Positions 14,429-56,268 of a DNA stretch of 64,000 nt are shown piece after piece. This DNA is from Williamsia serinedens (GTDB lineage: Bacteria > Actinomycetota > Actinomycetes > Mycobacteriales > Mycobacteriaceae), in NCBI RefSeq assembly GCF_024171725.1, contig NZ_JAMTCG010000010.1, positions 1-64,000 on the forward strand, written 5' to 3'. The notes under the pieces were generated by a model. That model saw only the letters and a program-made list of their open reading frames with translations. It searched no databases and was not told where the DNA came from. Every line of letters starts with the position of its first letter. The stretch's first letter is position 1. A program made the translations under genes and the position numbers.

Positions 14429-14457
14429 GCCGCACACCGACCCTGTCGGTGTGCGGC
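14429..14457 (+). terminator. Hairpin between mceF and the Mce-associated genes
   Basis: A perfect 13-bp stem (14429-14441 with 14445-14457) around a CCT loop is followed by TGTCGTGTGTCC rather than a U-run. It probably reduces read-through from mceF into the two Mce-associated genes. Confidence 0.65.
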
Positions 14458-52375: not shown

Positions 52376-53542
52376 TCAGACCGGCGGATCCATGGGCGGA
52401 CCGACATAGGTGGCGCGGGGTCGGATGATGTGGCGATCGCGTGCCTGTTCGAGGACGTTGGCGGTCCAGCCGACGACGCGACTGACCGCGAACGTCGGCG
52501 TGAACATCTCCCGCGGGAGACCACAGCGATCCATCACGACGCCCGCGTAGAACTCGACGTTGGCGTAGCGCGGGCGATCGGGACGGGCCTCCGCGAGGAC
52601 CTCGACGACAGCGCGTTCGACCTCGACGGCGAGTTCGGCCGTGCGCCCACCCAGTCGGGTCGCGACCTCGCGCAACAGCTCGGAGCGGGGATCGCGCGTG
52701 CGGTACACGGCGTGGCCGAAGCCCATGAGCCGACGGCCCGCGTCCAGTTCGTCCCGGGCCCACCGGCGGGCGACGTCGCCGGCGTCCGCGACGGTCATCG
52801 CGGGACCACCGCGCGCCGCGATGGCGTCGAGGGCGTCGAGTGCGCGGTCGGGCGCACCGCCGTGGAGCGGGCCCGAGAACGCCCCGATGGCGCCGCAGAT
52901 CGCCGACGGCAAATCCGCGCCGGTCGACGCGATCACCCGGGCGGCGAAGGTGGAGGCGTTGAAGCCGTGCTCGACCGTCGAGATGAGGTACTGCTCGATC
53001 GCACGGGTCTCGTCGGGTCCGGCCACCTCGCCGGTCACGGCGTGCAGCCAGTGGGCTGGCGTGTCCAGATCCTCGCGGGGGACCACGGGGTCGAGTCCGT
53101 GGGCCGCGCGATGTACCTCGCCGAGCAGCGTCGGGACCATGGCGCACAGTCGGATCCCGTCGTCGCGCCGGGTGTCCTCGTCGCAGTCCCACAGTGGTCG
53201 CATGCCCGTGTACTGGGCGGCTGCCGACAGCACCGTCCGGAGATCGACCAGCGGGCGGTGGTCGCCGGGCGTCGAGCCGATCGTGCGCGCGAGTGCCACC
53301 AGGTCCTCCGGCACCACGCGGTCGGTGCGGATCCGCTCGACGAACGTGTCGAGTTCGGCCGGGTCCGGGAGGCGCCCGTGGACGAACAGGAACCACACGC
53401 GCTCGAACGACGACGAGCGGGCGAGGTCCGTCGCCGGGTACCGGTTGTAGTGGTAGAGGCCCTCGTCGCCACGGACGTCCCCGATGGTCGTCTCCGCGAC
53501 GGAGACGTCGGACAGCCCGGGCGCCGCCTCGATGAGGGTCAT
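52376..53542 (-). CDS. Citrate synthase family protein (CitA-like)
   Basis: 388 residues. Citrate-synthase motifs: 'YHYNRYPATDLA', 'TVEHGFNASTFAARVIAS', 'GPLHGGAPDRAL' (catalytic His) and 'MGFGHAVYRTRDPR' (second His). The third catalytic position is Glu in 'NVEFYAGVV' instead of Asp; I recall the same in mycobacterial CitA. It condenses oxaloacetate with acetyl-CoA or possibly propionyl-CoA. It is divergent from a second, DNA-binding citrate-synthase paralogue. Confidence 0.88.
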   Translation of the reverse strand: MTLIEAAPGLSDVSVAETTIGDVRGDEGLYHYNRYPATDLARSSSFERVWFLFVHGRLPDPAELDTFVERIRTDRVVPEDLVALARTIGSTPGDHRPLVDLRTVLSAAAQYTGMRPLWDCDEDTRRDDGIRLCAMVPTLLGEVHRAAHGLDPVVPREDLDTPAHWLHAVTGEVAGPDETRAIEQYLISTVEHGFNASTFAARVIASTGADLPSAICGAIGAFSGPLHGGAPDRALDALDAIAARGGPAMTVADAGDVARRWARDELDAGRRLMGFGHAVYRTRDPRSELLREVATRLGGRTAELAVEVERAVVEVLAEARPDRPRYANVEFYAGVVMDRCGLPREMFTPTFAVSRVVGWTANVLEQARDRHIIRPRATYVGPPMDPPV

Positions 53543-53606
53543 GTCGGGTCACCCATACGAATCGTGGTCACACCGGCTACGTTCGGCCGTGGCGACGACG
53601 TCGTCA

Positions 53607-53625
53607 ATGTTGATCGGATCAACAT
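53607..53625. promoter_or_regulatory. 19-bp palindrome upstream of the HTH-citrate synthase gene
   Basis: ATGTTGATC-G-GATCAACAT, nine perfect base pairs around one base, 14 bp before the GTG start and just ahead of its GGAGG. Its position between the divergent citrate-synthase genes fits an operator for the fusion protein itself. Confidence 0.7.
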
Positions 53626-53639
53626 CGGAGGCAGCTGCC

Positions 53640-54833
53640 GTGCGACGACACACCCGACGCTGGCCCACCGCCATCCGTCACGACGGCCGCGACTACCTGT
53701 CGACCGCGCAGACCGCCCGCGTGCTCGGGGTGCAGCCGGCGACGGTGTACGCCTACGTCAGCCGCGGCCGGCTCACCAGCGTGCGCATCGAGGGGCAGCG
53801 CGGGAGCTTGTTCGCCGTCGCCGAGATCGAGGCGTTCGCGCGCCGGACCGAGCGCCGACCACCCGCCGGGGTGGTCGAGCGCATCCGCACCGAGCTCACC
53901 CTCATCGAGGGCGACGAGTTGTACTACCGCGGCCGCCGCGCCGTCGACCTGGCGTGGGAGTGCGACGTCACCGAGGTTGCGGCCCTCCTGTGGGACGCGC
54001 CCTGGCCGACGGTGCGGGTGTCCCCGGTACGGGTGCCGCGGGACGTCCGCGGACTCGACGTGATCCACGCCGTCGTCGCAGAACTCGGCGCCCTCGACGC
54101 CGACCGTCATGTCGAGCAGACATCGGCGCGCGTCGCCGCCGCGGCACAGATGGTGCAGACCGCAGTCATGTCGCTGCCTCTTGCGGGTGACGACCCCGGC
54201 ACCGGATCGTCTCTCGCGCAATGCCTGTGGCCCCGACTCACCGCGATGGCCCTTACACCGCGCCGGGTACGGCTGCTGAACGCCGCGCTCGTCCTGCTGG
54301 CCGATCACGACTTGTCCGCCAGTGCTGTCGCCGCGCGGGTGGCCGCCAGCGCCCGCGGCAGCGTGTACGCCGTCGTGTCCGCGGGACTCGGAGCATTCGA
54401 CGGACCCCTGCACGGGGGTGCCGCCTCCGCTGCGCAGGAATTCGTGCGTGCACTCGTCGACGTGCCGGGCGACGTGCGAACTGACCTCGCAGCTCGAGAA
54501 CGACTCCCCGGGTGCGGTCACGTCGTGTATCGCGAGCAGGACCCGCGCGCCGAGGCGCTGTTCACCGCCATGTACGACGACGGCATGCCGCATCACCTGC
54601 AGGAGGTGACCGACGCGATCCGAACCGAGGCTGCCGCCCGGCATCTCCCTGTCACCTCGGACCTGGCGCTGGCCGTCATTGCGACGCGGTATCGGATGAT
54701 CGACGACGCGGCGATGACCGTCTTCGCGCTCGCGCGAATCGTCGGCTGGGTCGCGCACGCGCTGGAGGAGTACGCGGAGACACCGTTGCGATTCCGGCCG
54801 GAGGGCGTGTACGTCGGGATCCGACCGACGTGA
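53640..54833 (+). CDS. Helix-turn-helix/citrate synthase fusion protein
   Basis: 397 residues from the GTG at 53640 (GGAGG eight bases upstream). Residues ~20-68 ('YLSTAQTARVLGVQPATVYAYVSRGRLTSVRIEGQRGSLFAVAEIEAFARR') are an excisionase/MerR-type winged helix. From ~80 on it is a citrate synthase: 'ADHDLSASAVAARVAAS' (His223), 'GPLHGGAAS' (His258), 'GCGHVVYREQDPRA' (His294) and Asp341 in 'VTSDLALAV'. The active-site residues are therefore retained. It may be an enzyme, a metabolite-sensing regulator, or both. Confidence 0.87.
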   Translation: MRRHTRRWPTAIRHDGRDYLSTAQTARVLGVQPATVYAYVSRGRLTSVRIEGQRGSLFAVAEIEAFARRTERRPPAGVVERIRTELTLIEGDELYYRGRRAVDLAWECDVTEVAALLWDAPWPTVRVSPVRVPRDVRGLDVIHAVVAELGALDADRHVEQTSARVAAAAQMVQTAVMSLPLAGDDPGTGSSLAQCLWPRLTAMALTPRRVRLLNAALVLLADHDLSASAVAARVAASARGSVYAVVSAGLGAFDGPLHGGAASAAQEFVRALVDVPGDVRTDLAARERLPGCGHVVYREQDPRAEALFTAMYDDGMPHHLQEVTDAIRTEAAARHLPVTSDLALAVIATRYRMIDDAAMTVFALARIVGWVAHALEEYAETPLRFRPEGVYVGIRPT

Positions 54834-54917: not shown

Positions 54918-56198
54918 TCAGGCGGCCATGGAGTCGAGTCGGAGTGTTCGTCGGTTGTAGGCGGGTTGTAGTTCGCGTCGGGGGTCGACGGTGGCTGGTG
55001 GTCGGATCCAGGGGTGGCGGTCGGGTCCCATCTCGATCTCCCAGCCGTGCTGGTGCACGGCGACGTGGCAGGTGCGGCAGAGCAGGCACCCGTTGTCACA
55101 CGTGGTGGGCCCGCCCTGGGAGTGGAACACGATGTGGTGGACGTCGGTCCATGAGGCGGGATTCCCGCACATGACGCACGTTTGGTCACGGGCGACGATG
55201 GCTTTACGGGTGCGGCCGGTGAACAACCTGGCCTTCGGGGAGATGTCGACGGGCGCGGCGTCGACGTCCACGGCGATGCGGGTGACCGAGGCGTCGCATG
55301 ACAGCAGCGACACCGCCTCGTCGGAGACGCTGCCCATCCACTGCAGGTGCGCCGGCCCGACCGGGGTGATCCCGCAGCACGAGCCACCGGCGGTGGGCAC
55401 GGTCAGCAGGATCTCGGTCTTGGCCGACCCGACGAGCCCATCTATCCCGAGCGCTCGGGACGCCGCCTCGACAACTTGCACGAACGCATCCGCCCGCCGC
55501 TGATTCGCCGACCGCGGGTCCGGCGTGCCGTCCGGTAGCGGCCGCGGCCGCGAGGCGGTGTCGACGCACGAGATCAACCGCTCACCCGCGACAACGTCGA
55601 GGTCGAACGACCCCGCCAGCCGACCGTCGTCGCGCTGCGCCCACGACAGTTCATTGAGTGTCGTGTCTTCCGCAACCGGTGGCACCGGCCCGTCGACCTC
55701 AGGCTGGTTCTCGAGCGCGATCGCCCGCGCCCGATCGTCGATCTCAACCGGCGACCGGCCCGCCAAAGCGTGCCCGATCAACACCGCCTCGGTGTCGACT
55801 GCGAACTCCGACCCCAGCGGTGACCGGGTGCGCGTGCAGACGTGCCGAACTCCGCGGGCGACCGCGTCGGCATACTCCGCCGACATCGATCCATCTCGCA
55901 GATGCCGCGCCAGCGCCGGAAGATGCGCGATCGCACGCCCCAGCCGGATCGCCCGGGATGCGACCCCAGGAACGCAGCCGTGACGTCGCAGCAGCTCTCG
56001 CGCCGACATCCCCACCCGCTTCGCCGTCCCGTGGCACTCGATCTCCCCGGTCACCCGGGCCAGCAACCCGTCCGCAGCATTGCGCGCCGTAACCGCGGCA
56101 CGCACCCCCGCCACCAACGCGTCATCATCCGCGGGCATCTCGCACCCGCGGACGGCATCGGCGAGGCGATCCGCCGCCTCGAGCACCTCGTCGAACAT
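54918..56198 (-). CDS. DUF222-HNH endonuclease protein
   Basis: 426 residues. An N-terminal DUF222 (13E12-repeat) helical region is followed at the end by an HNH motif 'CVMCGNPASWTDVHHIVFHSQGGPTTCDNGCLLCRTCHVAVHQHGWEI', with the zinc cysteines and catalytic His-His present. The family is highly multiplied in mycobacteria and relatives; its role is uncertain (phage/REP-like or repair). The ATG at 56198 was chosen because TAGAGT lies exactly seven bases upstream. Confidence 0.88.
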   Translation of the reverse strand: MFDEVLEAADRLADAVRGCEMPADDDALVAGVRAAVTARNAADGLLARVTGEIECHGTAKRVGMSARELLRRHGCVPGVASRAIRLGRAIAHLPALARHLRDGSMSAEYADAVARGVRHVCTRTRSPLGSEFAVDTEAVLIGHALAGRSPVEIDDRARAIALENQPEVDGPVPPVAEDTTLNELSWAQRDDGRLAGSFDLDVVAGERLISCVDTASRPRPLPDGTPDPRSANQRRADAFVQVVEAASRALGIDGLVGSAKTEILLTVPTAGGSCCGITPVGPAHLQWMGSVSDEAVSLLSCDASVTRIAVDVDAAPVDISPKARLFTGRTRKAIVARDQTCVMCGNPASWTDVHHIVFHSQGGPTTCDNGCLLCRTCHVAVHQHGWEIEMGPDRHPWIRPPATVDPRRELQPAYNRRTLRLDSMAA

Positions 56199-56205
56199 GT
56201 GTACG

Positions 56206-56211
56206 ACTCTA
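56206..56211 (-). promoter_or_regulatory. -10 element of a probable leaderless transcript of the DUF222-HNH gene
   Basis: On the minus strand TAGAGT, seven bases, then ATG. There is no Shine-Dalgarno sequence. Confidence 0.45.
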
Positions 56212-56268
56212 GGCGCCTGCACCGACACCCCGTCCCGCGATCAGGCGGAAAGCGCACAACCTGTGAAC

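Follow-up and report, generated by a model that had tools for sequence, protein, structure and literature searches.

The window analysed here is the whole stretch of 64,000 nucleotides from Williamsia serinedens introduced above. This report concerns a gene in it that encodes a citrate synthase with an N-terminal helix-turn-helix (HTH) domain, and a palindrome in the 97-bp gap between this gene and a divergently oriented second citrate synthase gene. The protein has a DNA-binding domain at its N-terminus, and a corresponding DNA site stands before the gene in nearly every relative examined in two bacterial phyla; the comparison of these sequences therefore suggests that the fusion is, in all probability, an enzyme converted into a gene switch. 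The locus contains the following features:

52376-53542, minus strand: divergent citrate synthase of the CitA type, 388 amino acids (P0002), the proposed target
53578-53583, plus strand: TACGTT, candidate -10 element of the fusion gene, putatively assigned from the Williamsia alignment
53604-53613, strand not applicable: core TCAATGTTGA, comprising the first two half-sites (a and b) of the motif shared by the two phyla
53607-53625, strand not applicable: perfect palindrome ATGTTGATC-G-GATCAACAT, the proposed operator
53619-53623, strand not applicable: TCAAC, third half-site, here 5 bp after TTGA
53627-53631, plus strand: GGAGG, likely ribosome-binding site of the fusion gene, judged from the sequence
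53640-54833, plus strand: gene of the HTH-citrate synthase fusion, 397 amino acids (P0001), with a GTG start and the stop codon at 54831-54833
53694-53846, plus strand: HTH_17 domain (residues 19-69), MerR/BldC-like, with the motif YAYVSRG, from Pfam and conservation
53883-54800, plus strand: citrate synthase domain (residues 82-387) with H223, H258, H294, R303, D341, R366 and R386

The first-pass annotation had placed the fusion gene at 53484-54833. This is the longest open frame, but not the probable extent of the gene: the 52 codons at its beginning run across the divergent gene and the palindrome, and a start at 53484 was rejected because of this overlap with a neighbouring gene and a proposed operator. 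The likely start is the GTG at 53640, behind the GGAGG at 53627-53631. The N-terminal DNA-binding domain that the same annotation had seen on the citrate synthase holds up, as both HTH_17 (33.5 bits) and Citrate_synt (172.5 bits) score above their Pfam cut-offs of 27. None of the curated NCBIfam cut-offs for citrate synthase subfamilies is reached (best model TIGR01800, 140 versus 421), and the fusion was therefore not filed as a standard citrate synthase. Among the sequences of the PDB, those nearest to the HTH are 6ama, 4j2n and 6amk, all of them weak matches with E-values of 0.03-0.05 (0.031 for 6ama and 0.047 for 6amk); we take 6ama and 6amk to be structures of BldC.

The active-site residues His258, His294 and Asp341, which had already been named for this protein, are indeed present, and in an alignment of 67 fusions (that of the window included) they are kept in 66, 63 and 66 sequences, respectively. 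The oxaloacetate-binding residues H223, R303, R366 and R386 are kept in 66-67 of the 67; all these residues presumably correspond to those of the citrate synthase from E. coli. Because the pocket residues are conserved, the suggested sensing of acetyl-CoA or oxaloacetate by the fusion is plausible. Conservation extends to the HTH, where Y37, Y39, S41, R42 and G43 are invariant in the 67 sequences, A38 is conserved in 65 of them, and valine (54) or alanine (13) occupies position 40. An AlphaFold2 model of the fusion (pLDDT 79, with the HTH blocks at 65-86) matches citrate synthases, the best being 1a59 with a Z-score of 31.8 and an rmsd of 3.4 over 320 residues. The VIA structure list used for this comparison consists of citrate synthases and is no test of the HTH fold, and the model is a monomer, so that DNA geometry lies outside its use.

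The divergent partner had been described as a conventional citrate synthase, and this description has to be given up. The protein is not a standard GltA but of the CitA type, with a glutamate in place of the catalytic aspartate. The same glutamate occurs without exception in the 62 aligned sequences of this type (61 of them distinct, since L099 repeats L039), and also in the PDB sequences 2c6x and 8gmf when these are aligned with the partner. From the repeat, neighbour, fusion-alignment and dinucleotide-shuffle counts in this report, L099 was left out. The former, 'citrate synthase 1', is the partner's best PDB match and presumably CitA from B. subtilis, and the latter is CitA from M. tuberculosis.

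The palindrome is exact at 53607-53625 and lies inside the gap 53543-53639, as had been stated. In isolation it is weak evidence, and its occurrence by chance is not very improbable: a perfect arm of at least 9 (spacer 0-8) also turns up in 27 of 5000 dinucleotide shuffles of the gap, and the window contains 12 distinct perfect inverted repeats with arms of at least 9. It is the conservation across relatives that makes the case strong. Within its own genome the palindrome has no other match with up to 3 mismatches, and the regulon in this organism is therefore probably just the divergent pair. When the gaps of eight Williamsia sequences are aligned, the block GTCAA-GTTGATC-GATCAACATC is invariant except for two variable columns (the dashes), and most of the remaining gap diverges. 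The other piece conserved in all eight sequences is CTA..TTCG, with a TA..TT box 19 bp before the block. A scan for sigma-70 consensus promoters found no promoter. We also considered a terminator, but the terminator scan found none and the loop of the palindrome is a single base.

We surveyed 394 genomes of the class to which Williamsia belongs, scoring only the best candidates per genome at a cut of 1e-40. Fusion matches of at least 235 bits were found in 62 of them, and other synthases scored at most 151 bits. Within the genus Williamsia, seven of eight genomes (the present one among the seven) carry the fusion. Synthases of the partner type (E-values up to 1e-80) occur in 57 of the 394 genomes, and only three of these genomes had no fusion in this first survey. 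In two, G321 and G258, a fusion with its site was met later, so that absence of the fusion is unproven for the other survey-negative genomes as well; in the third, G022, a contig end cuts the sequence. The loci fetched exclude the fusions of G138 and G082, and the HTH was in view for those survey matches that are not fragmentary.

Of the 68 actinobacterial loci, 64 contain an inverted repeat TTGA-N3..10-TCAA, a loose pattern with any spacer from 3 to 10, in the 330 bp before the fusion gene. The spacer is 5 in 35 loci, 6 in 24, 7 in two and 8 in three. By chance such a repeat occurs in 0.75% of mononucleotide shuffles and in 28 of 3400 dinucleotide shuffles (0.8%), and it is present in 13 of 680 other segments of the same loci taken outside the upstream stretch; a control with random segments, which could include the site itself, gave 10.5%. 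The core TCAAYRTTGA is exact in 52 of the 68 upstream stretches, not always beside the repeat. The four loci counted as misses are L053, L059, L085 (with 99 bp of upstream sequence) and L098 (a split, partial match). At paralogous citrate synthase loci of Williamsia the repeat was found in none of 16.

The spacer-5 form AYRTTGATYNRATCAAYRT was searched in 35 actinobacterial genomes and, with one mismatch allowed, found at 28 places: 23 are fusion promoters, three lie at CoA-transferase genes, one at a relocated citrate synthase gene and one inside an unrelated gene (G370, L134). The seven genomes among these 35 that have no fusion match do not contain this form at all. The spacer-6 form, searched without mismatch in 29 genomes, was found at 16 places, all of them at the fusion.

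Relatives with both domains also sit on plasmids of Proteobacteria. Matches were found in 103 plasmid records, and 18 records, chosen by hand from 40 of these, were examined. Seventeen named HTH-citrate synthase loci, 15 of which are proteobacterial, were compared: the repeat is present in 16, and a synthase without an HTH that was examined alongside them does not have it. The spacer is 9 in 14 of the 15 proteobacterial loci; the third half-site thus stands 9 bp away here and 5-8 bp away in actinobacterial loci. Pfam confirms the HTH in four of the 15 proteobacterial fusions, and in the others it was recognized by a fusion profile that reaches into the HTH; in L201, HTH_17 lies just under its cut-off and MerR_1 above.

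We searched 13 proteobacterial replicons (record W14 was left out) for the extended motif TCAAYNTTGA-N9-TCAA. Twelve of them have it at a single place, and the thirteenth does not have it. Eleven of the 12 places are at known fusions. The twelfth, on a Comamonas plasmid, lies 27 bp before an annotated citrate synthase gene that proved to encode a second HTH fusion: the HTH motif is present and the fusion profile matches over the full length, with the HTH uncalled by Pfam. The motif led to this gene and therefore predicted a member of the family. The gene (L215, 1605-2783) lies on a plasmid of Comamonas antarctica, divergent from a group encoding a 2-hydroxyacid dehydrogenase, a fumarylacetoacetate hydrolase and a tripartite tricarboxylate transporter.

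In a tree of the synthase domains (70 rows), the fusions of both phyla fall on one side of a single branch and the stand-alone synthases on the other (branch length 1.26, SH-aLRT 100). One old fusion event would be the simplest reading of this topology, with the caveat that the tree was built by a quick procedure and that some of its branches are long.

The genes next to the fusion are less constant than the site. A citrate synthase gene stands divergent to the fusion in 58 of the 68 actinobacterial loci (in one case as a remnant), and among the 15 proteobacterial neighbours there are six citrate synthases, three family III CoA-transferases, one MFS transporter, two DUF2332 proteins and three unannotated records. 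Judged from these gene orders, fusion and site stay together while the neighbours change. Seven fusions without a divergent partner keep the site (L050, L058, L077, L081, L084, L091 and L097), and three synthases without a fusion lack it, which rules out that the site is a citrate synthase promoter element per se. In G268 the divergent partner is only a remnant in two frames (L142, 1708-2222) and fusion and site remain, and in G215 a distance of 20 kb separates the partner synthase from the fusion, with the site found at both genes.

In probable Streptomyces, the site also occurs 5' of a family III CoA-transferase gene, just before the start codon (L144-L150). Of 18 CoA-transferase matches examined, these seven are the best-scoring ones. 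At L152, whose 77% identity covers a shorter stretch, and at L153 one half of the site is decayed, and no site was found at L151 and L154-L161 (L158 being a partial gene). The gene L147, in G215, has an in-frame stop. Where looked at, the CoA-transferase gene L144-L150 adjoins a subtilase gene. In G119 and G025 the fusion lacks both a partner and a site of its own, and the CoA-transferase gene there bears the site. The first-pass annotation had cast the protein as a regulator of its own enzyme pair. An action on the palindrome, on its own gene and on the partner is well supported by the comparison of two phyla and several gene neighbourhoods, in which the site goes with the fusion and is also found at a relocated partner and at a CoA-transferase; 'own pair' fits Williamsia but is too narrow elsewhere.

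Taken together, we propose that the fusion is a one-component regulator that uses its citrate synthase fold as a sensor, binds the conserved site and represses its own promoter and that of the partner. From the comparative evidence we put the probability of this reading at roughly three in four; binding by the fusion itself, the sign of regulation and the ligand are its inferred parts. The HTH domains would bind the TCAAYNTTGA-n-TCAA site, which stands between two divergent promoters and probably just 3' of the transcription start of the fusion gene. From this position the protein, once bound, would be expected to repress the fusion gene, and probably also the gene of the CitA-type partner. 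The placement after the candidate -10 likewise favours repression over activation: the conserved block follows it by 19 bp in Williamsia, and in several proteobacteria the block comes directly after a TATA-like stretch of the putative promoter.

Since the substrate residues are retained, the signal is likely to be citrate, an acyl-CoA or an oxo acid, for instance oxaloacetate, which would occupy the pocket and alter the open or closed state of the domain. Citrate synthases are dimers that close on their substrate. This closure could shift two HTH domains with respect to the half-sites, so that a changed domain state could change the fit of the HTH pair on the DNA. The clade-specific spacers of 5, 6 and 9 would fit either HTH domains held on linkers or a BldC-like tandem binding to direct TCAAY repeats.

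Several observations weigh against this proposal. The fusions of L053 and L059 have no repeat despite full upstream sequence, and their genomes carry the site at a CoA-transferase gene instead; the Comamonas locus L200, the one miss among the 17 named loci, has only a form of the repeat with one mismatch. Partner-type synthases away from any fusion and without the site exist in L193, L194 and L213, one of them on a Streptomyces plasmid. The spacer varies by clade from 5 to 9. The site overlaps an annotated or possible start codon in W04, W08, W09, L005 and L006, and the promoter geometry is therefore unsettled; in L201, too, the annotated start would put the site inside the gene. Six of the seven site-bearing CoA-transferase genes were first met via the site. 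More generally, the motif was refined on the loci in which it was then counted, and these loci share a common ancestry.

Autoregulators that derive from enzymes are already known. PutA and BirA are trigger enzymes that repress their own operon, and they resemble the fusion in that an enzyme is joined to a DNA-binding domain and acts on its own or a nearby promoter; they differ in having other enzyme folds and other types of DNA-binding domain. The fusion shares with such trigger enzymes a conserved operator-like site at its own promoter, in the 64 of 68 and 16 of 17 loci described above. It is a serious possibility, though one we put well short of even, that the fusion is a bifunctional trigger enzyme in this manner, which makes citrate or a homologue and is moved off the DNA by turnover or occupancy. 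This would be a version of the best explanation with catalysis kept. It gains from the almost invariant catalytic and oxaloacetate-binding residues in the 67 fusions, which go beyond what a pure sensor might need, and from the match of the model to citrate synthases over nearly the whole domain. However, the citrate synthase domain is divergent, as its TIGR01800 score shows, and the citC gene of Caulobacter, which follows citB by locus number, did not complement a gltA mutant of E. coli according to the accessible part of that study (PMC7083601), a point that would bear on the fusion if CitC is itself an HTH fusion.

A different possibility is that an unrelated regulator, such as MtrA, GlnR or a protein of the FNR/CRP type, binds the palindrome and that the fusion is only one of its targets. 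TTGAT-ATCAA does resemble an FNR site. A further point against our proposal comes from S. coelicolor, where MtrA binds the intergenic region shared by SCO5831 and SCO5832 (citA3/citA4), two putative citrate synthases, and where an mtrA mutant shows higher expression of the two genes at late time points, as described in the accessible part of the report (PMC12323332). For Saccharopolyspora, the available portion of a review (PMC10704036) reports GlnR as a negative regulator of citA and citA4. We infer that one of SCO5831 and SCO5832 is the fusion. However, the predicted MtrA site TTGACTTAACTGTCCA resembles, with at most four mismatches, not the palindrome but another stretch beside it in 14 of 23 streptomycete intergenic regions. 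This TTGATTCGACTGTCCA-like stretch was seen in the upstream regions of L039-L060. Moreover, the palindrome is found almost exclusively at one or two places in each genome, and in the 12 proteobacterial replicons that have the extended motif it always lies at an HTH-citrate synthase. It therefore fits poorly with a global regulator, and any other regulator would have to track the fusion across phyla. We thus regard this explanation as improbable. We consider it still less likely that the protein is simply a minor citrate synthase of the ordinary kind, with the HTH as a relic or assembly domain, and that the palindrome serves as an element of the promoter or the mRNA. The modest HTH_17 score and the position of the palindrome between candidate promoter and start codon would speak for this. 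Against it, the HTH residues Y37 to G43 named above as invariant are kept across the 67 fusions, the same site stands before CoA-transferase genes and a relocated synthase gene, and it is absent at all 16 other citrate synthase loci.

Two further features of the window may be mentioned. A gene for a DUF222/HNH endonuclease lies at 54918-56228, just 3' of the fusion gene and on the opposite strand, and at 14429-14457 there is a perfect inverted repeat with 13-bp arms, GCCGCACACCGAC-CCT-GTCGGTGTGCGGC.

That HTH-citrate synthase fusions exist in databases, as the first-pass annotation had stated, is confirmed by records in PLSDB, where they are named 'citrate synthase family protein'. They have the same order of HTH and Citrate_synt and lie divergent from a citrate synthase or CoA-transferase gene; the records seen give the enzyme annotation only and no operator or regulatory role. 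The arrangement recalls CitR-citA of B. subtilis, where a regulator also lies divergent from a minor synthase of the CitA type, but CitR is a LysR-type regulator and no relative of an enzyme. In the open-access literature we found no report of an HTH-citrate synthase acting on DNA. In the accessible part of the article on SCO5831 and SCO5832 the pair is studied as an MtrA target, and no DNA-binding role of either protein is given there (PMC12323332). The terms helix-turn-helix, MerR and DNA-binding domain are absent from the accessible text of the paper on citrate synthase and the cell cycle in Caulobacter (PMC7083601). Another likeness is offered by the MerR-like BldC of Streptomyces, which binds direct repeats at sites of varying length, according to the accessible part of its description (PMC5859096). 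The sites of the fusion hold TCAAY direct repeats besides the inverted repeat; BldC, in contrast, has no effector domain, where the fusion has its citrate synthase domain.

We tentatively extend our proposal, at somewhat less than even odds, to all HTH-citrate synthases. They would then form one ancient regulator family that spans phyla and uses the same operator, and they would employ the reaction centre as a sensor, perhaps by slow turnover, to set the side-branch citrate synthases and family III CoA-transferases according to the state of oxo acids and acyl-CoA. Citrate synthase is the entry of the citric acid cycle and, if the proposal is true, the fusion would be a direct genetic read-out of that node. 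The site is kept from Agrobacterium and Ewingella to Williamsia, and the protein is widespread, yet it is named as an enzyme. The operator gives rise to a simple prediction for laboratory strains, and it links a CoA-transferase of unassigned substrate to the same control. It may also explain why some bacteria have several apparent citrate synthases, not all of which would act as one.

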